This document shows positions 3,123 through 15,447 of a stretch of DNA of 32,108 nucleotides, in pieces; positions within the stretch are counted from its first letter, which is position 1, and each line of letters begins with the position of its first letter. The position numbers and the translations under genes were made by a program. The stretch covers positions 1 to 32,108 of the forward strand of contig PAZA01000043.1 of assembly GCA_002715375.1 (NCBI GenBank), read 5' to 3'. Source of the stretch: Halobacteriovoraceae bacterium (lineage in GTDB: Bacteria > Bdellovibrionota > Bacteriovoracia > Bacteriovoracales > Bacteriovoracaceae). The notes beneath the pieces were generated by a model. That model had not been told where the DNA came from and did no database searches. It was given only the letters and a program-made list of their open reading frames with translations.

Positions 3123-4712
3123 TTAAAGGCCATGTACCTTTGTCAAAAGATCAATTTTTATATCCCCTTCGACCATTCCTGATTTTTTTTTCAAATCTAA
3201 ATAATAATCAGTCGCCTCTGGGAAAACTTTGACCCTAAAATGACCTAATTGGTTAAGTTCTCGAGCTAATTTGTAATGAAAATGATTAAGTAATACCTCC
3301 TCACCTTTTTGTTCCAGACTACTTATTTGCTCCTCCTCAATTTCTTCTCCTTGAAATAACGCCAGATAAAAAGGCCTCTTCTCACCATTGAGAACTCCCA
3401 AAAGGGAAACAGGGCTTTTTCCATCATCTCGTAAAGAATCGAGGAGTCCTTTTGCAACATCTTCCCCCATTTTTTCACCTACCAAATCCAACCCCTCAAC
3501 GCGTCCCTGAAAAACAAGTGAAAGAGGTGATGAAACCCCTTTTTCTACTCTCAACTCATCCTTTAGATGATATCTAAGCAGGCCATTTCCAGCACTAATC
3601 AGAGGTGAAACCCTCATCCCTACTTTAAGCTCCCATGATGGGATGACCTCATTAGTCTCTAGAGAAAGGAACTCATAAAAATGGCTACGGTAGGCAAGTG
3701 TATAGTCCCCCTTAAATGGAATTGTTACAACACCTTCTGTTGCAAAAAGACCTTTCCCCTGAATATGGGCATTAGGGAAAAGCTCTTGCAGTTTTTTTGC
3801 ATAAATTAAAGAGGTTCCAGTATCCCAACAACTTATTAAAGATAAACGAGGCCAAAGCTTCATTAAATCTTCCGAGTTAAGATTTTTCTGAAACCCTTTT
3901 AAAAGACGGGCCGACTCCTTATCTTTGATTGGCTTAATAACCTCCAAGTCAGGACCGAAATCTTCCCAAGAGCCCTTTTCCAACATTGAAACGATTGATT
4001 CTTTACGATCCATCATAAACTCAATGAGCTCGAGGAAAAATGTGGGCCCCCAAATAAAGATGAAGGTCAAGTTCCTTGCAGCAACCAAATAAACACAAGT
4101 GGCCAACCTGGAGGCCTCCACTGTCTTTGCCAAAGTCACAGAAGATGGTACACATAAACAATTTCCTATAAGCCATCGATGAATTTTTGGAAAATAGGAT
4201 AAATCATCGTTAGTCCTCCCTTTTTCCCTCATGCTCGTTGGTAACCAAGACAAAGACCAATAGTGATCGCCCTTACCAATTTCTGGAAATTGCTTAAAAA
4301 GGTCAAAAAGCCAAGGGAAAATGGCCTCTTTAAACTCACCCATCATAGATTGAGTATAAGGGATCCACTTTTCCCTATGAGAACTCCCACTTGTAGGCTG
4401 ATAAAGAAAAGGTTTCTCTTTAAAAACCCGCTCCCCTTTTTTTTCCCTTTCAACGAACTCCAACCAATCATTGTATTGACTCGGTTTGAAAACTTTTACA
4501 AAAGAAGAATAATTAATGGGCCCATTTGGGTCCAATCTATCCTTGAACTCTGTCTTCTGAAGACCGTCAAGGAGTGTATTTAACTTCTTTTCTTGGATTC
4601 TCTTGAGGTTCTTAAAATTATTCCTAAAAAGGAAGTAAGATGGAAAAATGGCCAATTTCAACAAGGGTATAACAAAGATCCTCAGGGAGAGCTGCCGGAA
4701 AAACCGTTTCAT
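3123..4712 (-). CDS. GH3 auxin-responsive-promoter family (acyl-adenylate/amidosynthetase-like) protein
   Basis: 529 aa; LYQPTSGSSHREKWIPYT resembles the GH3 ATP-binding TSG(S/T)(S/T)xxxxK-x-IP motif; C-terminal GH3-like layout. Confidence 0.8.
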   Translation of the reverse strand: MKRFFRQLSLRIFVIPLLKLAIFPSYFLFRNNFKNLKRIQEKKLNTLLDGLQKTEFKDRLDPNGPINYSSFVKVFKPSQYNDWLEFVEREKKGERVFKEKPFLYQPTSGSSHREKWIPYTQSMMGEFKEAIFPWLFDLFKQFPEIGKGDHYWSLSWLPTSMREKGRTNDDLSYFPKIHRWLIGNCLCVPSSVTLAKTVEASRLATCVYLVAARNLTFIFIWGPTFFLELIEFMMDRKESIVSMLEKGSWEDFGPDLEVIKPIKDKESARLLKGFQKNLNSEDLMKLWPRLSLISCWDTGTSLIYAKKLQELFPNAHIQGKGLFATEGVVTIPFKGDYTLAYRSHFYEFLSLETNEVIPSWELKVGMRVSPLISAGNGLLRYHLKDELRVEKGVSSPLSLVFQGRVEGLDLVGEKMGEDVAKGLLDSLRDDGKSPVSLLGVLNGEKRPFYLALFQGEEIEEEQISSLEQKGEEVLLNHFHYKLARELNQLGHFRVKVFPEATDYYLDLKKKSGMVEGDIKIDLLTKVHGL

Positions 4713-4731
4713 AGATTTATCCCAATTTTAC

Positions 4732-4757
4732 AAAAAAAAAGCCCCATCCATGGGGCT
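4732..4757 (-). terminator. Rho-independent terminator of the HU gene
   Basis: Plus strand AAAAAAAAAGCCCCATCCATGGGGCT; on the minus strand an AGCCCC/GGGGCT stem followed by a run of 9 T, just downstream of the HU stop. Confidence 0.85.
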
Positions 4758-4796
4758 ATGTTTAACAGAAAACAATTAAAAAGGGTTTTCTATTAT

Positions 4797-5072
4797 TTAA
4801 AGCATTTCTTTCCAGGCCTTCCCTGGACGGAATTTTGGAACATTTTTGGCTTTTATTTTTATTTTCTCACCAGTTGCTGGGTTAACACCAGTTCTGGCCT
4901 TTCTTTTAACTTTGCTAAAGCTTCCAAAGCCAACCAAAGAAACATCTTCACCTTTTTTTACTGTCTTTTTAATAACGTCGATGGTCGTTGCAAGAAAGAT
5001 ATCTGCATCCTTTTTAGTGATTTCAATATCAGCTTCTTGTATGATCTTATCAATTAACTCTTGTCTGTTCAT
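4797..5072 (-). CDS. HU family DNA-binding protein
   Basis: 91 aa with MNRQELIDKI...VGFGSFSKVKRKARTGVNPATGEKIKIKAKNVPKFRPGKAWKEML, the HU/IHF signature. Confidence 0.96.
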   Translation of the reverse strand: MNRQELIDKIIQEADIEITKKDADIFLATTIDVIKKTVKKGEDVSLVGFGSFSKVKRKARTGVNPATGEKIKIKAKNVPKFRPGKAWKEML

Positions 5073-5444
5073 AAAGCCTCCAACCTTCTTAATATTAAAT
5101 GTTATTAATTCAAGAACAATTATAGTCAGCTAAATTTCTTAAAGACAATCATTTTTTTATAAAAACAAGGATTTTAGAACAAGAAAAATTTAATTAAAGC
5201 CTAAATTAGCCATCTTTCTCATAAGGGTGAAGAAGGAGCCACTTTAAAAGAGATTTTTTCATGATTTTTCATAAAGCTTTAACAAAATAAGCAATTGGCC
5301 GAACTATTGAAAACCTGAGATTTTCTGACACCCAGACTCGGTCTTTTTTTTTCCGCCACCCATAGGAAAATCAAAAAAGAATAAAGTTTCATAACCAATT
5401 TTTACTCACTATATTTTTGAAAAGATTTAGTTTAGGCTGAATTT

Positions 5445-5894
5445 ATGATGATACTTAAAAAAGAAGACGATTATAAAGCTCTTATTGTTGATGATCATGA
5501 AGATGTCTGCCAAGTAGTGGAAGCACATCTCTGTCAGAATGGCTTTAAAGCGCACCTGATAGACAAAGCCTATTCTGGACAAGAAGCTCTTCATCTCCTC
5601 AGGTCCACCTCGTACTTCTTCATTTTTCTGGACGTTAAGCTGCCTGATTTGGATAGTACAAGCTTAATAGAGCACATAAGGAAAGATGACTCAAGAAATA
5701 AAGATGATATTCTCATGATGTCATCAGGCCAAGACTTAGATGAAATGATCAAAGAGTACTTAAACCAAAAAATTGAAAAAGATAAAGTTGATATTTTTCT
5801 CCTCAAACCTTTCAACCAAAAAGATTGCGATAATTACTTTGATCTAGAATATATTCTTAAACAACAGCAAAAAAGAAGAGAAAAGTTTAAATAA
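5445..5894 (+). CDS. Standalone response regulator receiver (CheY-like) protein
   Basis: KALIVDDHEDV acidic pair, FLDVKLPDLD phospho-Asp region, FLLKPF switch Lys; no output domain. Confidence 0.88.
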   Translation: MMILKKEDDYKALIVDDHEDVCQVVEAHLCQNGFKAHLIDKAYSGQEALHLLRSTSYFFIFLDVKLPDLDSTSLIEHIRKDDSRNKDDILMMSSGQDLDEMIKEYLNQKIEKDKVDIFLLKPFNQKDCDNYFDLEYILKQQQKRREKFK

Positions 5895-6085
5895 TATTAT
5901 TCTAACCTCTCAACCCAAGATACCAAACCTTTTGGCCAAAAAGCTAATTCTTCAACCTTAAAAAGATCACTCTAGACCTGAAGGTAAGCGACTATAAGCC
6001 GTTAGAATTTTTCCTCCTATCGACAAAATCAATAAAGAATTACTATAAACTTTAAGGAATTTCCCTTGGGGATTGGAACAATTCT

Positions 6086-6418
6086 TTGAAGATAAATATT
6101 GAGGTTACAGAAAACAGAAATATTTTCATTGTCGAAGGAGAAGTTGACTCCTTCTCAATATCTCATTTTGTCCAAGAATTAGAACTTCTCGAAAAAGTAA
6201 GCGGTCAAAAGATTGTAATCGACCTATCAAATATGAAGTCCATTAACTGGCGAGGGCTCTTAATCCTTTCAAATAAAATACTTGAAGCGAAGGATAGAAG
6301 TGACGAGTTTACTTTGGTTTGTAAAAACGATGAAATTATAGAAACTCTATCGCTTTTCACCCACCCCACAAAACTATCTTTCTTCCCAACGTTGGAGGAC
6401 CTTCTTGTATCCCTATAA
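6086..6418 (+). CDS. STAS-domain (anti-sigma-antagonist-like) protein
   Basis: 110 aa with alternating beta/alpha pattern and IVIDLSNMKSINWRGLLILSNKILEA; TTG start; overlaps the following gene. Confidence 0.65.
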   Translation: MKINIEVTENRNIFIVEGEVDSFSISHFVQELELLEKVSGQKIVIDLSNMKSINWRGLLILSNKILEAKDRSDEFTLVCKNDEIIETLSLFTHPTKLSFFPTLEDLLVSL

Positions 6419-7841
6419 CTTATTTAAAAAATGGGTAACCCCCTATAAAGTTTTAGTTTGCATTTCAGCTTTATTACTAAATTCCCATATTTCCGAGGCC
6501 TCTGGAAGTAAAAAGCCAAAAAAAGTATCAAAAGGTAAAGTCTACAGTTTCAAATTTTTTCACGACCAGCTCTTACTTACAAATGATGAGCTAAAAATGA
6601 AAAAAAGGGATCGGATTTTAGCGGAAGAAAACCTCACAGTTTCAAAATCAGGCCATTATCCCAAATTGGACTTAAAAGTTGGCGCAAATGGAGGAAGTGA
6701 ACAAGAAGCTAGTTCATCAAGTGTAGATCCATCTGGGGGCGCGGGGAAAATGGGACTTTCCGGAGGCTCTGCTGGAACATCCAATTACAAAGTAAACTCT
6801 GATTCAATATCTGGAAGCTTGGGGTTAACCTATAATGTATTCTCAAGATTTGCTACCCATAACTCTATTTTAAATGCTCAAAATGGAGTTAATCAAAAGC
6901 TTTTGGAAAGAGACCTTTTACTTGATAGGAAAAAAAAGGAACTTATCCACTTGCTTCTTGAAATGCAATCCTTACTAAAGATTAAAAAGGTTTTATTAAG
7001 AGCAGAGTATTTACTAAAACGTCTTGCCTATAAAAGTAGAAGTAAAACAAGGCGGTTATTTTTTGGTTCAAGTAGAGGACTTAAAATCGATAAAAAGTAT
7101 AAGGAAATTCTTTATCAAAAAACAAAGGTTACAGAATATATTGAGACGGGGCACTTGGCCCTAAAAAACCTAATACCAAACTATAGACCATATTGGTTAA
7201 AAGGGCTTAAGAAATTATCAATTAGTTACAATTTACCTTCTTTTGATGATGCCTCAAAAAAGTTTTTGAAAAAATCAAAAACATCTAAAAACTTATCACT
7301 GGATATTCAAAATTATAAAAATATCCATAATACAACGACATGGGAAAGGGCCTGGATTCCATTAGCTTTTTTATCTGCCAGTCAAACGACCACACAATCA
7401 TTAAAGACAAAAGAAGTTTCAAATGGCTGGAGTGCTAGCCTTGTTTTCCAATTCAACCTTTTTGATGGTTTTTATTCTAGCGCGAGAAGATCGCAGGCAT
7501 TCAATATGTATAAGATAAGCCAAATAAAAAAAAGAGATCAACTTTCAAAAGGAGTTATTCTTTTGAGAAAAGATTATGCTCAAGTGAAAACATCTTCAAG
7601 AAAGAAAAACTTTATCCAGGCCATAATAAGAGAAAAGAGATTTAAAATAAAAAATATAAAACAAATAAGAGAAAGAGGCGTCTCTACCAAAACTGAAGAA
7701 AGTTTTATGCTACTTGATTTGGCCAAAAAGGAAATGGATAAGAGAGAAGCGCAAAAAAATTATGAAATCGCCCTTTTAAACATAGCCACAAATATAGATG
7801 AACTGAATAAGGTAAAAATATATGAATCAACAACCCTATAG
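6405..7841 (+). CDS. TolC-family outer membrane efflux protein
   Basis: 478 aa with N-terminal signal-like segment; two coiled/TolC-like halves (LTYNVFSRFATHNSILNAQNGVNQKLLERDLLLDRKKKELIHLLLEMQ; LVFQFNLFDGFYSSARRSQAFN). GGAGG RBS 6 nt before the TTG start. Confidence 0.8.
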   Translation: MYPYNLFKKWVTPYKVLVCISALLLNSHISEASGSKKPKKVSKGKVYSFKFFHDQLLLTNDELKMKKRDRILAEENLTVSKSGHYPKLDLKVGANGGSEQEASSSSVDPSGGAGKMGLSGGSAGTSNYKVNSDSISGSLGLTYNVFSRFATHNSILNAQNGVNQKLLERDLLLDRKKKELIHLLLEMQSLLKIKKVLLRAEYLLKRLAYKSRSKTRRLFFGSSRGLKIDKKYKEILYQKTKVTEYIETGHLALKNLIPNYRPYWLKGLKKLSISYNLPSFDDASKKFLKKSKTSKNLSLDIQNYKNIHNTTTWERAWIPLAFLSASQTTTQSLKTKEVSNGWSASLVFQFNLFDGFYSSARRSQAFNMYKISQIKKRDQLSKGVILLRKDYAQVKTSSRKKNFIQAIIREKRFKIKNIKQIRERGVSTKTEESFMLLDLAKKEMDKREAQKNYEIALLNIATNIDELNKVKIYESTTL

Positions 7842-8523
7842 ATCATTCAAGTCAATCTTTTTATTGATGTCTTTTTTCTTTATAACAATCCTTTTTTTTT
7901 CCAATAAAGGAAAAGCAGAGTCTTTAAGAGAATTGATTCCCTCTTATGGAGTTATCAAACCAAAATTTGTTTCAACCCAAGTAGCGATAGGCAATGGAAT
8001 AGTTCACAAAATAAAGTATAAATTAGGCGATAAAGTTCGAAGAGGTAAAGTTCTTATTAGTATTATTGAGAGAGATACCATAAGAAATTATAGAAACACC
8101 TTAAAGGGAACAGTTGCTAAAATTCACGTTACACCAGGAGCTGCCATAAGTGCAGGGATGCCCCTTGTGACGATTGTAAATTCTGATAAAAAATATATGG
8201 AAATTGCTTTTTCTCCTGATGAATCAAATAAAATTTCAAGGGGTTTAAGTGTTTTATCTCAAAATAAAAAGAATAAAATTGGAATAATCAACCGACTCTC
8301 TCCGATTGTCGACCCAGATACAGGGACTGTACTCTCATTTGTCGACCTTAAATCTTATGGTAGACCCTACAGGATCGGTGAAGTACTCCCAATATTTATT
8401 GAAGGTAAATTAAAGAAGTGCAAAAAAGTAATTGGATTAAAAGAATTAGGACTTTATACAAACGGATATAAAGTTAACTTCATTGCCGGGGACAAAGCTT
8501 GCCTGGATGCAACAAGTCCCTAA
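7822..8523 (+). CDS. Short RND periplasmic adaptor (membrane-fusion/biotinyl-lipoyl type)
   Basis: Hydrophobic N-terminus; GIVHKIKYKLGDKVRRGKVLISI and GTVAKIHVTPGAAISAGMPLVTIVN half-lipoyl motifs; overlaps the preceding gene. Confidence 0.8.
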   Translation: MNQQPYRSFKSIFLLMSFFFITILFFSNKGKAESLRELIPSYGVIKPKFVSTQVAIGNGIVHKIKYKLGDKVRRGKVLISIIERDTIRNYRNTLKGTVAKIHVTPGAAISAGMPLVTIVNSDKKYMEIAFSPDESNKISRGLSVLSQNKKNKIGIINRLSPIVDPDTGTVLSFVDLKSYGRPYRIGEVLPIFIEGKLKKCKKVIGLKELGLYTNGYKVNFIAGDKACLDATSP

Positions 8524-8555: not shown

Positions 8556-11513
8556 ATGGTTCAAACATTTATAAAAAAAGGGGTTTTCACTGTTTGTTTA
8601 AACCTGCTCATCCTTTTAATTGGCTACTTTACAATACCTAAATTATCTAACGAATTTATTCCACTTGTTGAAGTTCCAGCTGTCGCTGTAGTTATCCCTG
8701 CACCTACAATGAGTGAGCAAAATATAAAGCGAAATATTGTTTATCCTCTTGAAAAGGCCCTCCTCCGCACAGGTGAATTAAAGTCAATTGAAGCTGACAT
8801 TGAAGAAGGGAAAGCCGTCTTTAAACTTTTTTACAAGTGGGACTTTCTACCAGAGGAGTGCTTAAGAAAAGCAAGGCAAACAGTTGAGAACTTATCTCTC
8901 CCTGATGGAATCATGGACCCTATCTTCGTTTTATATAAACCTAGCAATAATCCAATTCATAGGGTTGTCTTTTATGGCGTCAATATAGAATCTCTTTCTT
9001 CCCATGTACTTAAAATAAAAAGCCAGGTTGAAAGGATACCTGGTATCTCAGAAGTACTAATCGCAGGTCAATACCTTGGAAAAACCTACATAAATGTAGA
9101 TAATAAAAAACTTTCTCAATACCAAATTAGCTCCAAAAGCATAATTGATGAAGCTTATAACACATGGAAACTTAAAAAATTTTATAAGGGAACGCCACTC
9201 AACCATACTCTTTCTCTACCTATAAAAAAGCCTGAGGATATGAAACTGCTTCCCATATTAAATTATGAGGGCAGTCAAATATATATGAAATGGATTGGAA
9301 ATATTTCAAAACCACCAGGCAAGGCACAAGTTATTTATGGAAAAGAAAAACCTGCTGTCATTCTAGAAATCATAAAAGCCGCTGGAGCAGACACCATTTC
9401 AATTATAAATAAGGCCCATAAGATCATTGAAAAATCGAAAAAATCTTCAATTCAAACTGAAGAAATTTATAATGAGGCGATTAAAATAAAAGAAAGTCAA
9501 AATGGAGTTTTTACGAATTTTTTCATTGGGGTCATTTTAAACTCTATGATTCTAATGATATTCCTAGGATCCACAATTGGTGTTTTAGTTGCCTCTGTTG
9601 TCTTTCCAACGGCTTTATTAGGTACATTTTTTACAATGGATCAGCTAAGCATCTCAATAAACCTCTTTAGCCTTAATGGTTTCTCTCTCGCGGTAGGAAT
9701 GATCACGGACGCTTCGACTGTAGTTCTAGAGTCTATAACCCAGAGAATAAACAGAAAAGAGCCTCTCTTTTTGGCCTGTTGGAAAGGAGTTAAAGATGTC
9801 AGTCTGGGAGTTCTGGCATCCACCTTAACAACTGCGGGGGTCCTTTTACCTATTGCATTCCAAAAAAATGTATCCAGTAAACTTTTTTCAGACCTTAGCC
9901 TCACTGTTGTTTCAACTCAAATTTTTTGCCTTATCGCTGTCTTTAGTCTTGTACCTTGGCTTTGTTTTAAAATGCTAGGAAAAAACAAAAAGCCTCCCTC
10001 TCTCATTCATTACCTCTTTAAAAAATCTGATTTTCTCGTAAAAAGTATGATTAAATTGGCCCAAACAATACAAATTATCTGTAGAAAAAAATTTTTTTTC
10101 AGGTTGGTCATCCCAGGTAGTGTTGTTTTCTTGAGCCTCGGCTCAGTTGTTTTTTTACCGGACATGGAGTTTCTTCCTCAGGTTTCATCACGTGTTTATT
10201 CCTTAAAGTATCCAATCAACTCATCTAGAAAAAGTGTTGAAGGAATAGAAAAAAGAAACCTAGTGGCCTCCACCTTAAAAGAATGGAAGGAAGTTGCTTG
10301 GTCTGTTTCCTCATTTAACAAAAATACCGTAGATATACTTTTTTCTTTAAAGAAATCTTTTCCTTTGGAAAAAATAAAAGAGAAATTCAAAGGAAAAAAT
10401 CTAGATTTTGACAAGGTTAATATCTTGCCTGTAGGGCCGGCACCTTCAGGAGAAGCATTTGGTTATGACGGCCTTTACTTTATTAGCCAAAACTTGCCTG
10501 ATGATAAACTTAAAAGTCTTATAAAAAATTTCTGTGAAGACCATACTGTCAATACCTGCTTGGGGCCTGAGCTCACAAGAAGCTATAATTTTCACCTAAA
10601 GCCTGACCACTTGACTACATACCGAATGGGACTTTCAACATACCATGGTCTCAGTCAATTTTTTATTCCGTTACAAGAAATTAACTTGTCCTCAATTGCA
10701 GATTTTGATTTCAAAAACCCATCAATTCTTAAAATTTCATTTAAAAACTCACTATTAGACTTACCAATTATCAATTCCAAGGGAGAAAGAAATATTATCA
10801 GTGAGCTTTATAACCATAAAGTGGAAAAGTACGATACTTTAGTAAAGAGAAAAAATGGTGATGACTTTTTTCCACTATTTTTCAAACTCAAAAACTCTAC
10901 CATTGGTCTGGCCGATAATAGTATGAGTTCTATAAGAAAAAAACTAGGTATCAAGAAAAAAGAAATTATCGGCATGGGAACTCTGGAAACAATGAATGAA
11001 AGTTTTGGAGGTCTCATAAATGCCCTTACAATCTCCGCCTTTATTGTTTTCATAATCCTAGTGATCCAATTTAACTCCGTTAGGCAAGCTTCAGTCATTA
11101 TGGGAACAATTCCCCTTACCCTTGGAGGAGCGATCTGTGGACTCATTGTTATGGGCGAAACTGTAAATGCAAGTGTTTTGGTAGGTTTCATCCTCCTTAT
11201 AGGAATTGTTGTCAATAATGGGATCTTTTTAGTTGAAGCAACTAACCAAAAGCTGTTTTCTGGAGGCACTAAAACAGATGCCATAAACTGGGCAGTTTCT
11301 AGCAGAACCAGACCCATTTTAATGACCTCATTTTCAACAATTTTGGGAATGTTGCCTACTTTAATTATTGGTGGTGAAGGCTCAGAATTATATAGAGGTA
11401 TGGCCATTGTTAACGTTTTTGGAATGATAACAGGAACTTTTCTTTCTATTGTTGTCACACCTATTTTTATAGAGTACTTAGGCCTGCCTAAGAACATCAG
11501 TGGAGAACGATAA
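8556..11513 (+). CDS. Efflux RND transporter permease (AcrB/MMPL superfamily)
   Basis: 985 aa with RND layout: porter region, TM4 GFSLAVGMITDASTVVLESI, SSRTRPILMTSFSTILGMLPTLI near TM11. Confidence 0.93.
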   Translation: MVQTFIKKGVFTVCLNLLILLIGYFTIPKLSNEFIPLVEVPAVAVVIPAPTMSEQNIKRNIVYPLEKALLRTGELKSIEADIEEGKAVFKLFYKWDFLPEECLRKARQTVENLSLPDGIMDPIFVLYKPSNNPIHRVVFYGVNIESLSSHVLKIKSQVERIPGISEVLIAGQYLGKTYINVDNKKLSQYQISSKSIIDEAYNTWKLKKFYKGTPLNHTLSLPIKKPEDMKLLPILNYEGSQIYMKWIGNISKPPGKAQVIYGKEKPAVILEIIKAAGADTISIINKAHKIIEKSKKSSIQTEEIYNEAIKIKESQNGVFTNFFIGVILNSMILMIFLGSTIGVLVASVVFPTALLGTFFTMDQLSISINLFSLNGFSLAVGMITDASTVVLESITQRINRKEPLFLACWKGVKDVSLGVLASTLTTAGVLLPIAFQKNVSSKLFSDLSLTVVSTQIFCLIAVFSLVPWLCFKMLGKNKKPPSLIHYLFKKSDFLVKSMIKLAQTIQIICRKKFFFRLVIPGSVVFLSLGSVVFLPDMEFLPQVSSRVYSLKYPINSSRKSVEGIEKRNLVASTLKEWKEVAWSVSSFNKNTVDILFSLKKSFPLEKIKEKFKGKNLDFDKVNILPVGPAPSGEAFGYDGLYFISQNLPDDKLKSLIKNFCEDHTVNTCLGPELTRSYNFHLKPDHLTTYRMGLSTYHGLSQFFIPLQEINLSSIADFDFKNPSILKISFKNSLLDLPIINSKGERNIISELYNHKVEKYDTLVKRKNGDDFFPLFFKLKNSTIGLADNSMSSIRKKLGIKKKEIIGMGTLETMNESFGGLINALTISAFIVFIILVIQFNSVRQASVIMGTIPLTLGGAICGLIVMGETVNASVLVGFILLIGIVVNNGIFLVEATNQKLFSGGTKTDAINWAVSSRTRPILMTSFSTILGMLPTLIIGGEGSELYRGMAIVNVFGMITGTFLSIVVTPIFIEYLGLPKNISGER

Positions 11514-11515
11514 AT

Positions 11516-11806
11516 ATGAAAGCTGTCATGCTGCTTTTTGACTCAGAACTCGTCGAAGAAGCTCTTCTAATGATAAGGATATCAAACATACAAAATTACA
11601 CACATTTTACAGGACTGCATGGTTCTTCTAAGGCAGGTAAAAAAGATGGGTCCGCGGCTTGGCCAGGCACAAATGAAATTATAATGATTTTATTGGATGA
11701 TATTAGCCTAAAAAAATTAAAAAAAGTTATTGGTGATTTTAAAATCAAGCACCCGGAAAGGCCTCTTCTCTTTTTTAATTGGCCTTTAAGTGAGGTAGTT
11801 ATATAA
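11516..11806 (+). CDS. PG0541-like transporter-associated protein (PII/ferredoxin-like fold predicted)
   Basis: 96 aa, MKAVMLLFDSELVEEALLMIRISNIQNYTHFTGLHGSSKAGKKDGSAAWPGTNEIIMILLDD..., between two RND genes with near-zero spacing. Confidence 0.7.
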   Translation: MKAVMLLFDSELVEEALLMIRISNIQNYTHFTGLHGSSKAGKKDGSAAWPGTNEIIMILLDDISLKKLKKVIGDFKIKHPERPLLFFNWPLSEVVI

Positions 11807-14476
11807 ATGTTAAAGTTTCTCCAAAAAGTTGCAGAATATAGAAGAATTGTTCTCATTTTTCTTTTTGTACCTATATTTGCCGTTTTTCTAAACTTATCCA
11901 AGGGTCTGAGGTTCTTTCCTGAAGATAGTTTTATAAGGTTTAAGATTGAGTTTTATGTTCCCAGTAAACTAAGCTCAGAAATAGAAAAAAAAGTGACAAC
12001 CGTTGCTGAAAAAACGTTTAATGGCCTATCAAACCTAATTTCAATTGAATCACTAACAAATCATGAACACTCAGAAATAAACCTTATATTTGACAGATTA
12101 AATGATCCAAATAAAATTCTTCTTTTTATCCAGGAAAAGCTCGATCGATTAAAAGTCACTCTCCCAGGAGATGTTAAACAAATTAAAGTAACCCATTTAA
12201 AAATACCGTCCCCTCCGGACTTTACAATTAGCACACACAAAGACTTTAATTTAATAAAATTTAAAAACTATATTAAAAGTTTAGATCAATCTATAAGAAA
12301 AATACAACCTGAATTAGAGGAAGGTCTTAATTGGAAAATAAAGCTAAATCCAAAAAACCTTTTAAGATACAATATCTCTATAAACCAGGTTTGGCATTCT
12401 TTAAAAATAAATGGTTTTGCATCACGCTTAGGTTCAAAAGATGACTTAAGTTATTTTGTAGAATCAAATTTTAGTTCTCTTCTTGAATTAAAGTCCACAA
12501 TTATAGGTGCAAAATCAAATACTCCAATAAAACTAGTAGACATCGCAAACATTTCACTTATCAACCCCACAACCCCAAAACAAATAAAGGTATGGTTTAA
12601 TAAAGAAAATGTAAATTTAAGCAAAATTGAAAATGATATAAAATCTTTATTTCCGTTGGCAAAAGTTGAAAAAACCAATGTAAAGCTCTGGTTATCATTA
12701 TTTCAAAAGCCTTTACTCTTTTTTTCAATTTTTACAATAATTTGCTTTTTAATATATTATTTTGTTTTCAAAAACATTAAAGCTGCAGGAAGCTCAATTA
12801 TTTTTAACTTCGGTTTTTTTATTCATTACCTCTTTTGGTGCTTTATAATTACAGATAGCTTTACGTTATTTGACTTCTACTCATTAATCTTAGGCCTCAT
12901 TTTTGGATCATTTTTATGGCTCGTCCTTCTTAGTAAAATAAGAAATTCATTTTATCACAAGAACAAAACTGGAGAAAAAATAACAATCCAGCAGTCAATT
13001 CTTTTTGCTCTTTCAGAACTAATCCCAACTTATTTGATTTTGCTTACGCTATTTTATTTGTTTTCTCTTCCAACACTTTCCAATACGATTAGCTTGCCTT
13101 CTTCGAAGGTATTACAGCACTTTTTTAAAATTTCCATACCCATAATCTTCTATTTTTTAACGATCCTTTCAGTTTTTAGCCCTTTAAACTGGGCCACGAG
13201 AAAGGGACCAGAAAAAAAGCCCACCCGCCTTTTTTCAAGAAATATATTTATTCCTCCATTGATTGTTCTTTTTATTCCAATAAGTATTTATTTCTGGCCA
13301 TTAAAACCTTTGGGTATGAAAGATTTTAAAAATGGCCACAAAAATAAAAACTTTAATTCTAGTTTAGACAAATACAGAGGCCACAAACACGCTCTCACCT
13401 ACCAGAGTAAGACTGGTCAAGTTCCTAAAAATTACAATCTGGTATCAAAGAAGTTTCTTGAAAAGGAGTGGGTCAATCAATGGGAAGTAACAGCAAGCGG
13501 ACTAAGGTCCCTTCCCAAACTTGATATCTCGAGCTTTAAAATGGCCATGGAAGATATACAGCAGGAAAAAAGGCTTTCCTTTTTTAACTTAGAAAAAAAT
13601 CAAAGTAAAACATCGATCCCCATAAGACTTGATCAATTAGTTTTAGATGAAAGAAACTTTTCTCACCTTCTTATTGGCAATCGAAGCTCAGGTCAAAAAC
13701 CAAGTCACCTTGGCCATATCACAAAAAAAACAATCGTTTCAGTCCCAAAAGTTATATTTCATGAACAAATTAATAGAGTTGATCAATTTTACTTTAAAGA
13801 TTTAAACAAAAACCAATCTAATTTTTTAAATAAACCTAAAAATGATAAAAACTTTAAAGAAACATCTCTTACCAAGTTCTGGAGAAAACATCATAGGAAC
13901 TTCATTTCCAGTCACTTAGTTTCATTTATCTTCATTTTCACCTTCCTCTCCCTCTACATGAATTCTTTTTACAGAGGTTGGATTATCACGGCAATTTGCC
14001 TGGCCCAATCTGGCCTTTCAAGTGGTATTCTCTTTTTATTAAAAGATGTTATACCACTTGATACTTTGTGGCTTGATAACTTGCCACAATGGTTATCTAT
14101 AGCCATCATTTTAGTTTTAACAAGACCTATGGATTTAGAAAGGGTTAGGGGTCTAGATATTGAAGTTGCCTTAAAAAAACTTAAAGACTTTTATGCTCGT
14201 GCCATCTTAGCAGCTGCCGTACTCTTTTCTTCTGGTCCTATTATCTTAGGTATTTTATCCATTCCCAATGAAAGTATCATTCCCATGTCAAAGCTTTTGA
14301 CTCAATCATCTATTTTTATAGGTATCTTAACTCTATTTTTAGGTTTAATTAGTTACCGTTTTCTGTTTTTTAGCTTTTATATAAGTAGTGAGAAAACAAT
14401 AGATAAGATAAGCCTATTTCTTTTGAAAAACTTTTATAAGATAAAAAACAGGAAATCAAGCAAAGCCATTTCTTAA
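11807..14476 (+). CDS. Divergent, degenerate RND-transporter-like membrane protein
   Basis: 889 aa; TM1, a periplasmic porter-like domain, a TM cluster, a second periplasmic region and a second TM cluster as in RND proteins; starts 1 nt after the preceding stop. Confidence 0.7.
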   Translation: MLKFLQKVAEYRRIVLIFLFVPIFAVFLNLSKGLRFFPEDSFIRFKIEFYVPSKLSSEIEKKVTTVAEKTFNGLSNLISIESLTNHEHSEINLIFDRLNDPNKILLFIQEKLDRLKVTLPGDVKQIKVTHLKIPSPPDFTISTHKDFNLIKFKNYIKSLDQSIRKIQPELEEGLNWKIKLNPKNLLRYNISINQVWHSLKINGFASRLGSKDDLSYFVESNFSSLLELKSTIIGAKSNTPIKLVDIANISLINPTTPKQIKVWFNKENVNLSKIENDIKSLFPLAKVEKTNVKLWLSLFQKPLLFFSIFTIICFLIYYFVFKNIKAAGSSIIFNFGFFIHYLFWCFIITDSFTLFDFYSLILGLIFGSFLWLVLLSKIRNSFYHKNKTGEKITIQQSILFALSELIPTYLILLTLFYLFSLPTLSNTISLPSSKVLQHFFKISIPIIFYFLTILSVFSPLNWATRKGPEKKPTRLFSRNIFIPPLIVLFIPISIYFWPLKPLGMKDFKNGHKNKNFNSSLDKYRGHKHALTYQSKTGQVPKNYNLVSKKFLEKEWVNQWEVTASGLRSLPKLDISSFKMAMEDIQQEKRLSFFNLEKNQSKTSIPIRLDQLVLDERNFSHLLIGNRSSGQKPSHLGHITKKTIVSVPKVIFHEQINRVDQFYFKDLNKNQSNFLNKPKNDKNFKETSLTKFWRKHHRNFISSHLVSFIFIFTFLSLYMNSFYRGWIITAICLAQSGLSSGILFLLKDVIPLDTLWLDNLPQWLSIAIILVLTRPMDLERVRGLDIEVALKKLKDFYARAILAAAVLFSSGPIILGILSIPNESIIPMSKLLTQSSIFIGILTLFLGLISYRFLFFSFYISSEKTIDKISLFLLKNFYKIKNRKSSKAIS

Positions 14477-15447
14477 ATCGAAACCTTCTTTTTTATTTTA
14501 CGATTCTTCTTTGATAAAAAGGCCAAGACCTCTCGGATTGTTTTATCATCTCTTAAAATCTTATTATGACCTAATCCATGTGAGATTTTTAAAAGGCTCT
14601 TTGGAATCACTTTACTTAGTTTTTTTGAGTTCTCAACTTTCGAAGCACGGTCGTCTTCATCATGGAAAATTAAAACGTGCCCTTTAACCTGTGGGCCTAT
14701 TACACAAGGGTTAAAATCATTGAAGCTTCTATTATACTTGGACTCCAAACTACTTATTAAAGTATCAAAAAAATCTTCACGTACTCCCTCCTGTGCTGCC
14801 CAACGTTTAAAATCATCTTCCACATCATAATTAGGAGCAAAAAGAACAATTTTTTTAATTTTTAGAGTATTCGCCAGAGAGAGGGAAAAACAACATCCAA
14901 ATGAATGCCCTACAAAAGCATATATTTCTCCAACCACATTAACAACACTCTCTGCTGCCTCTAAAACCTCAAGGGCATTTGTCATAAAACCAGGGGACTG
15001 CCCATGAGAAGGAGCATCAAAGACCACCACTGAAAAACCTTCGCTTAAAAGCCTGGGTATAAATTGACAAAACTGAGTGCCACGTCCGGCCCACCCATGG
15101 GTGAAAAAAATACAAGGGCCTTTCCCCCACTTCATGCCAATCACTTCTCTTTTAGACTTGGGAAGAATCACTTTAAATGTTTGGGCCTTTTTTTGCCATA
15201 AGATTTCAGACTCACTCGGTTTGTAATGCCTGGGCCTAAAAAAGATCTTTTCAGCAACGTCCTCTACCTGTGAAGGGAAATAGTCCCAAGTTTTATTTAA
15301 TGTTTGAACAACCGCTCTCTTTCCAAAAGCCTGTATTTCATTAGGCATAAAGCCTAATAAATCGTTCTTAATCAGTTTTATCTTGGCCTTCGCCTCTGCG
15401 ATTTTTGATTCCATAAAACACCCATTTAAAATTTTAAAAAGTTTCAT
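14473..15447 (-). CDS. Alpha/beta hydrolase
   Basis: FFTHGWAGRGTQF oxyanion loop, VGHSFGC nucleophile elbow, LIFHDEDDRAS and SHGLGHNKIL acid/His regions. The start may be the internal Met at 15414. Confidence 0.88.
   Translation of the reverse strand: MKLFKILNGCFMESKIAEAKAKIKLIKNDLLGFMPNEIQAFGKRAVVQTLNKTWDYFPSQVEDVAEKIFFRPRHYKPSESEILWQKKAQTFKVILPKSKREVIGMKWGKGPCIFFTHGWAGRGTQFCQFIPRLLSEGFSVVVFDAPSHGQSPGFMTNALEVLEAAESVVNVVGEIYAFVGHSFGCCFSLSLANTLKIKKIVLFAPNYDVEDDFKRWAAQEGVREDFFDTLISSLESKYNRSFNDFNPCVIGPQVKGHVLIFHDEDDRASKVENSKKLSKVIPKSLLKISHGLGHNKILRDDKTIREVLAFLSKKNRKIKKKVSI

Follow-up and report, generated by a model that had tools for sequence, protein, structure and literature searches.

A conserved RND operon with a relay-less second permease and a predicted PII-like protein in a Halobacteriovoraceae bacterium

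Organization and distribution of the gene cluster

The stretch of DNA analysed here, referred to as the window, comprises 32,108 nucleotides and represents contig PAZA01000043.1 (G000:C43) of an incomplete genome of a Halobacteriovoraceae bacterium (72% complete), the nearest relatives of which include the assemblies Bacteriovoracaceae bacterium UBA7317 and Bacteriovoracales AH-558-A13. The window contains a cluster of six genes, all on the forward strand, in the order STAS protein, TolC-type channel, adaptor, RND1, PG0541 protein and RND2, with RND2 being the last gene. The first gene (6086..6418) codes for a STAS-domain protein (STAS, 1.7e-8), for which the alignment revealed no SSG phosphorylation motif, and the second (6405..7841) for a TolC-type outer-membrane channel (OEP, 8.6e-13), which is syntenic in relatives. 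The third gene (7822..8523) codes for a periplasmic adaptor of 233 aa (HlyD_3, 5e-12), which, as seen in the alignment, lacks the alpha-hairpin. RND1 (8556..11513) is an RND permease of 985 aa, identified by Pfam ACR_tran (2.8e-112) and by the relay alignment, with orthologues in 9 of the 129 genomes of the family. It is followed by the gene for a PG0541-family protein of 96 aa (11516..11806), for which a PII-like fold is predicted, and by RND2 (11807..14476), which codes for a relay-less RND pseudo-permease of 889 aa.

The last three genes are tightly spaced. The spacers had originally been given as 3 nt between RND1 and PG0541 and 1 nt between PG0541 and RND2, and have to be corrected to 2 nt and 0 nt. 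Across the homologous loci, the spacers among these genes range from -28 to +3 nt, the large negative values hinging on the start codon chosen. Upstream of the STAS gene, the window and genome G001 contain a response-regulator gene (5445-5894), which is not located at that place in the other relatives. At the other end of the cluster, a convergent gene for an alpha/beta-hydrolase (14473-15447) shares 4 nt with the end of RND2; this gene adjoins RND2 also in G001, and not in G002. A search for a link to anti-phage defence gave no PADLOC hit.

The distribution of the genes was surveyed in 129 genomes of the family, representing 48 genera. RND1, PG0541 and RND2 were identified in exactly the same nine genomes (6 of the 48 genera), and the set is also present in two genomes of family f11. 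For two identical sets of nine, random placement would give a chance of ~5e-14, or of 8e-8 by genus, figures which are illustrative only since the genomes share ancestry. It had been proposed to survey the gene neighbourhoods for cases in which the second permease gene is absent or decaying; instead, all homologous operons identified contain RND2, which is under purifying selection. As in MdtBC-type systems, the pump operon contains two RND genes that are adjacent and conserved together.

RND2 and the proton relay

The RND-like character claimed for the 889-aa protein was borne out, since 11807..14476 is an intact open reading frame whose product is related to RND proteins. Pfam ACR_tran (PF00873) matches residues 33-275, corresponding to the N-terminal third, at 4e-16, and a profile of 11 RND2 homologues compared to solved RND structures matched AdeB at 3e-15. 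The hydropathy of RND2 is compatible with the RND layout, in which 12 transmembrane helices (TM) form two repeats, with two large periplasmic loops. The AlphaFold2 model, obtained with a shallow alignment, has a mean pLDDT of 62.5 and a pTM of 0.53, and is poor at residues 466-700. With this model, the best 50 PDB matches in Foldseek were all RND structures (top match 1e-16); the structure prediction, in which a missing RND fold would have spoken against the assignment, gave an RND-like fold. For the C-terminal half, comparison by sequence gave no significant match to other RNDs, short motifs aside: a weak profile match was obtained at the TM10-TM11 motif only (E 5e-4, probability 32%), and the end of TM8, L-Y-x-N-S-F-x-R, resembles by eye the Q-F-x-S motif of RND1. 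Since this half is hardly recognisable by sequence, its identity as RND rests on the layout, the motifs and the fold match. The second periplasmic part had been described as shortened and of low complexity. It is indeed shortened, with 199 residues in RND2 compared to 283 in RND1 and 311 in AcrB (180-199 and 283-286 residues in the RND2 and RND1 homologues, respectively). The low complexity was not confirmed; the part is rich in Lys and Asn, yet its mean entropy is 3.76 bits compared to 3.62 bits for RND1.

In AcrB-type pumps, D407, D408 and the lysine of TM10 are essential to proton translocation (PMC12802153). For the relay alignment, 11 RND2s, 10 RND1s and the permeases of family f4, a family of the same phylum, were compared to AcrB, MdtB, MdtC and CusA. 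At the positions of AcrB D407, D408, K940, R971 and T978, RND2 of the window contains F, L, A, Y and A, and all five relay residues are absent in 11/11 RND2 homologues. The loss of catalytic signatures stated in the original prediction was therefore found as described: the TM4-like and TM10-like segments are present, without the relay Asp or a (K/N)NxI motif. The TM4-equivalent (residues 357-380; 12875..12946, + strand) has no Asp and carries an invariant I378-R379 at its cytosolic end. The TM10-equivalent with the adjoining cytosolic loop (residues 759-784; 14081..14158, + strand) has no K/N relay residue, and contains the conserved motif R-x-x-D-x-E-R-x-R-G-x-D/E. Because the relay is absent in all 11 homologues, RND2 is considered an RND-related protein that does not work as an RND antiporter of the known type.

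RND1 had been regarded as a normal-looking pump, which holds for the Asp at position 407, but not for positions 408 and 940, which are occupied by Ala and Asn; the equivalents of R971 and T978 are present. The equivalents of D407, R971 and T978 are kept in 10/10 RND1s, in which position 408 is Ala or Ser and position 940 is Asn. The second f4 permease has a reduced relay of this type as well (D, A, N, R, T). Judging from this conservation, RND1 would be energised, and the relay residues of RND1 and RND2 are consistent with the pair of one active and one inactive partner that had been suggested. The first permease of family f4 (L067 in G039, 4214-7399) contains an Asp at the position of AcrB K940, an unusual relay variant identified in 5/5 f4 genomes.

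The open reading frame of RND2 is intact and free of stops in 11/11 homologues. The dN/dS values are 0.085 for the window compared to G001 and 0.058 compared to G002, ratios which are rough because dS is saturated (1.4-2.9); between the window and G001, 362 of 887 codons differ at the third position and 75 at the second. RND2 diverges faster than RND1 and forms long branches, with identities between the window and G023 of 32% for RND2 and 51% for RND1. The best-conserved stretch of RND2 is TM10 with its cytosolic loop, with a mean pairwise identity of 0.47 compared to 0.22-0.36 elsewhere (0.34 in the first and 0.26 in the second periplasmic part), and 19 columns are invariant in the first periplasmic module. 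In the RND topology, the TM10-TM11 loop lies on the cytosolic side, as does the end of TM4. The loop motif of RND2 parallels R-x-R-G-x-D-R in both permeases of family f4, and is not present in RND1.

The PG0541 protein and the related operon of family f4

The PG0541 protein passes the curated cutoff of NF045581 (47.6 bits versus 45), a family whose name refers to an association with transporters in general. As in this family, the protein of the window is encoded beside an RND gene; here, however, it lies between two RND genes, the second of which is relay-less. Its AlphaFold2 model (pLDDT 85.5) shows the order beta-alpha-beta-beta-alpha-beta, with a T-loop-like segment at residues ~35-52 and a low-confidence segment (43-47) inside the long loop. 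Using the model in Foldseek, 50/50 of the best PDB matches were PII or PII-like proteins, with SbtB first and with CPII and GlnK also among the best (E 2e-5), at a sequence identity of only about 7-17% to the matched structures. A PII-like fold is thus predicted for the PG0541 protein, in line with the PII-like nature that had been assigned to it. In Pfam, no P-II match was obtained for the protein of the window, and its f4 orthologue scores 23.5 bits, below the gathering cutoff of 25. The PG0541 profile weakly matches a protein encoded beside the SbtA gene in G022, and both this protein and the f4 orthologue match Pfam P-II at about 1e-4. In G022, a genome of the same family, the gene for the SbtA-type bicarbonate transporter (L074, 8259-9551) has the PII-like gene 3 nt behind it. 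Plasmid-borne relatives of PG0541 were not found at the sensitivity of tblastn, and in the literature PG0541 was encountered as a single line in the gene list of one paper.

PII proteins are described to cap and inhibit trimeric transporters through the T-loop (PMC8352866, PMC10710835). The window resembles the SbtA-SbtB and AmtB-GlnK systems by a PII-like gene beside a transporter of a trimer-forming family and by the T-loop-like segment (PMC8352866, PMC10710835). It differs in that the neighbouring transporter is an RND protein and not SbtA or Amt, and in that it is known from genes and a predicted fold. For RND pumps, the available part of a 2023 review of transporter modulation lists AcrZ, YajC and WatS1, and does not mention a PII protein (PMC10710835). 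The literature available for this analysis yielded neither a PII-regulated RND pump nor an RND pump with an inactive subunit, so that PII gating is proposed here by analogy.

In family f4, the operon consists of the genes for an RsbW-like kinase, the STAS protein, a SpoIIE-type phosphatase, the channel, a full adaptor, RND, PG0541 and RND, in this order. The operon shares with the window the two RND genes and the order of STAS, outer-membrane protein, adaptor, RND, PG0541 and RND. It differs in that the second RND is full length, relay residues are present in both RNDs, the adaptor is full length, the STAS protein contains SSG, and RsbW- and RsbU-like genes are included. In the clade of the window, the adaptors comprise 214-238 aa, and in 7/7 of those compared a linker of about a dozen residues connects the two lipoyl halves, in contrast to the adaptors of f4, AcrA and MdtA; two C-terminal cysteines are conserved in these hairpin-less adaptors. 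The STAS protein lacks the SSG phospho-serine motif in 9/9 genomes compared, and genes for an RsbW-like kinase and a SpoIIE-type phosphatase are missing beside the STAS gene. An adaptor without the alpha-hairpin is also present in BesABC of Borrelia (PMC3807786), which, however, belongs to another lineage; in the window, the adaptor is shorter, and a second RND and a PII-like gene are added. Because f4 combines the same gene order with a normal adaptor, an RsbW-STAS-RsbU module and a second RND that is full length and bears the relay, the clade of the window looks like a specialised derivative with a pseudo-permease, a hairpin-less adaptor and a STAS protein devoid of the phospho-serine.

In the phylogenetic tree, RND2 forms one clade (100/100), and RND1 groups with the first permease of f4 (91/90). 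A grouping of RND1 with the second permease of f4 was rejected (p = 0.025). The corresponding grouping of RND2 was not rejected (AU p = 0.20) and is the least disfavoured of three pairings, a placement which is not established because of the long branches. An origin of RND2 as a recent duplicate of RND1 was considered and found no support, since its profile is closer to the permeases of f4 (E 2e-18 and 5e-17) than to RND1 of its own operon (4e-8). As the simplest, albeit unproven, reading, RND2 originated by loss from an f4-like ancestor. The ancestral state of the arrangement was probably a two-permease pump with both permeases energised, of the kind still encountered in f4.

Possible roles of RND2 and the PII-like protein

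MdtB and MdtC form an active B2C heterotrimer (PMC7015380), and relay mutations were shown to hurt more in MdtB than in MdtC (PMC4338810), so that a trimer with unequally energised members is not without precedent. MdtABC and MuxABC share with the window two adjacent RND permease genes with an adaptor, and unequal roles of the permeases (PMC7015380, PMC4338810). However, MdtB and MdtC are both full length and keep D407, D408, K940, R971 and T978, none of which is present in RND2 with its about 890 aa, and their genes are not separated by a gene for a PII-like protein as in the window.

We favour, with a probability of about one in two, a heteromeric pump powered by RND1, in which RND2 would be a non-energised structural or regulatory subunit docking the PII-like protein. 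RND1 and RND2 would assemble into a mixed trimer, like MdtB and MdtC. The ion gradient would be used by RND1 alone, with RND2 holding the asymmetric trimer together. The conserved cytosolic patch of RND2, at the ends of TM4, TM8 and TM10, may be where the T-loop of the PII-like trimer docks, and the PII-like protein may throttle or release the pump in response to a nucleotide or metabolite, comparable to SbtB acting on SbtA and GlnK on AmtB. By this analogy, the PII-like protein and the cytosolic patch are the obvious candidates for the regulator and its docking site. The more complete version, a PII-gated tripartite efflux pump with a mixed RND trimer in which the relay-less permease is the regulatory subunit receiving the PII-like protein, is put forward tentatively.

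RND2 might also be a structural or specificity partner in the heteromer, while the PII-like protein acts on RND1, on another target or as an assembly factor. This alternative, which we consider rather doubtful, shares the heteromer precedent (PMC7015380, PMC4338810) and agrees with the naming of the PG0541 family for association with transporters generally. Since PG0541 of f4 sits between two relay-bearing RNDs, the PII partner would moreover be independent of a dead RND. On the other hand, R-x-R-G-x-D is present in both f4 permeases and in the clade of the window was kept by RND2 and not by RND1, which fits docking to RND2.

It is unlikely that RND2 is a stand-alone pseudo-transporter outside the RND1 trimer, serving as a sensor or receptor that perceives a periplasmic ligand and signals to the cell interior via the PII-like protein. 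Such a role would account for the retention of the first periplasmic module, with its invariant columns, and of the cytosolic motif despite loss of the whole relay, and the adjoining PII-like protein could carry the signal. However, RND2 strictly co-occurs with RND1 and the two genes are tightly coupled, which favours a stoichiometric assembly, and the ancestral role of the second RND was probably transport, because the second RND of f4 still has the relay residues.

We regard it as highly improbable that RND2 is still an active transporter with its coupling rewired to other residues. Some charged residues of RND2 close to the membrane are invariant or nearly so, among them the invariant E404 and D752, but none of them occupies a relay position known from TM4, TM10 or TM11; the R773-D784 cluster is not a new relay, since it is part of the TM10-TM11 loop and is similar to this loop in the f4 RNDs. 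Finally, a functionless decaying duplicate, to which the long branches and the lower identity of RND2 might point, can be dismissed in view of the 11 intact open reading frames without stops, the dN/dS of 0.06-0.09 and the presence of RND2 wherever RND1 and PG0541 occur.

Judged by its sequences, the cluster is a real, conserved and unusual variant of a two-permease RND pump, in which one partner lacks any relay. The link of the RND1-RND2 operon to PII signalling, proposed from the analogy to known PII partners, is testable. According to the current view, the three protomers of an RND pump cycle through different states, and each is energised through a relay of its own. A natural pump in which a relay-less protomer is kept over long evolutionary times would be a clean experiment of nature on the number of protomers that have to be energised, which has so far been studied in engineered mutants and MdtBC. 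For this question, the clade of the window and family f4, with its relay-bearing second permease, offer a before-and-after comparison. With a PII-like protein fixed in this operon, PII control, which is established for Amt, SbtA and some ABC importers, would be extended to efflux pumps, and a role is suggested for the PG0541 family.
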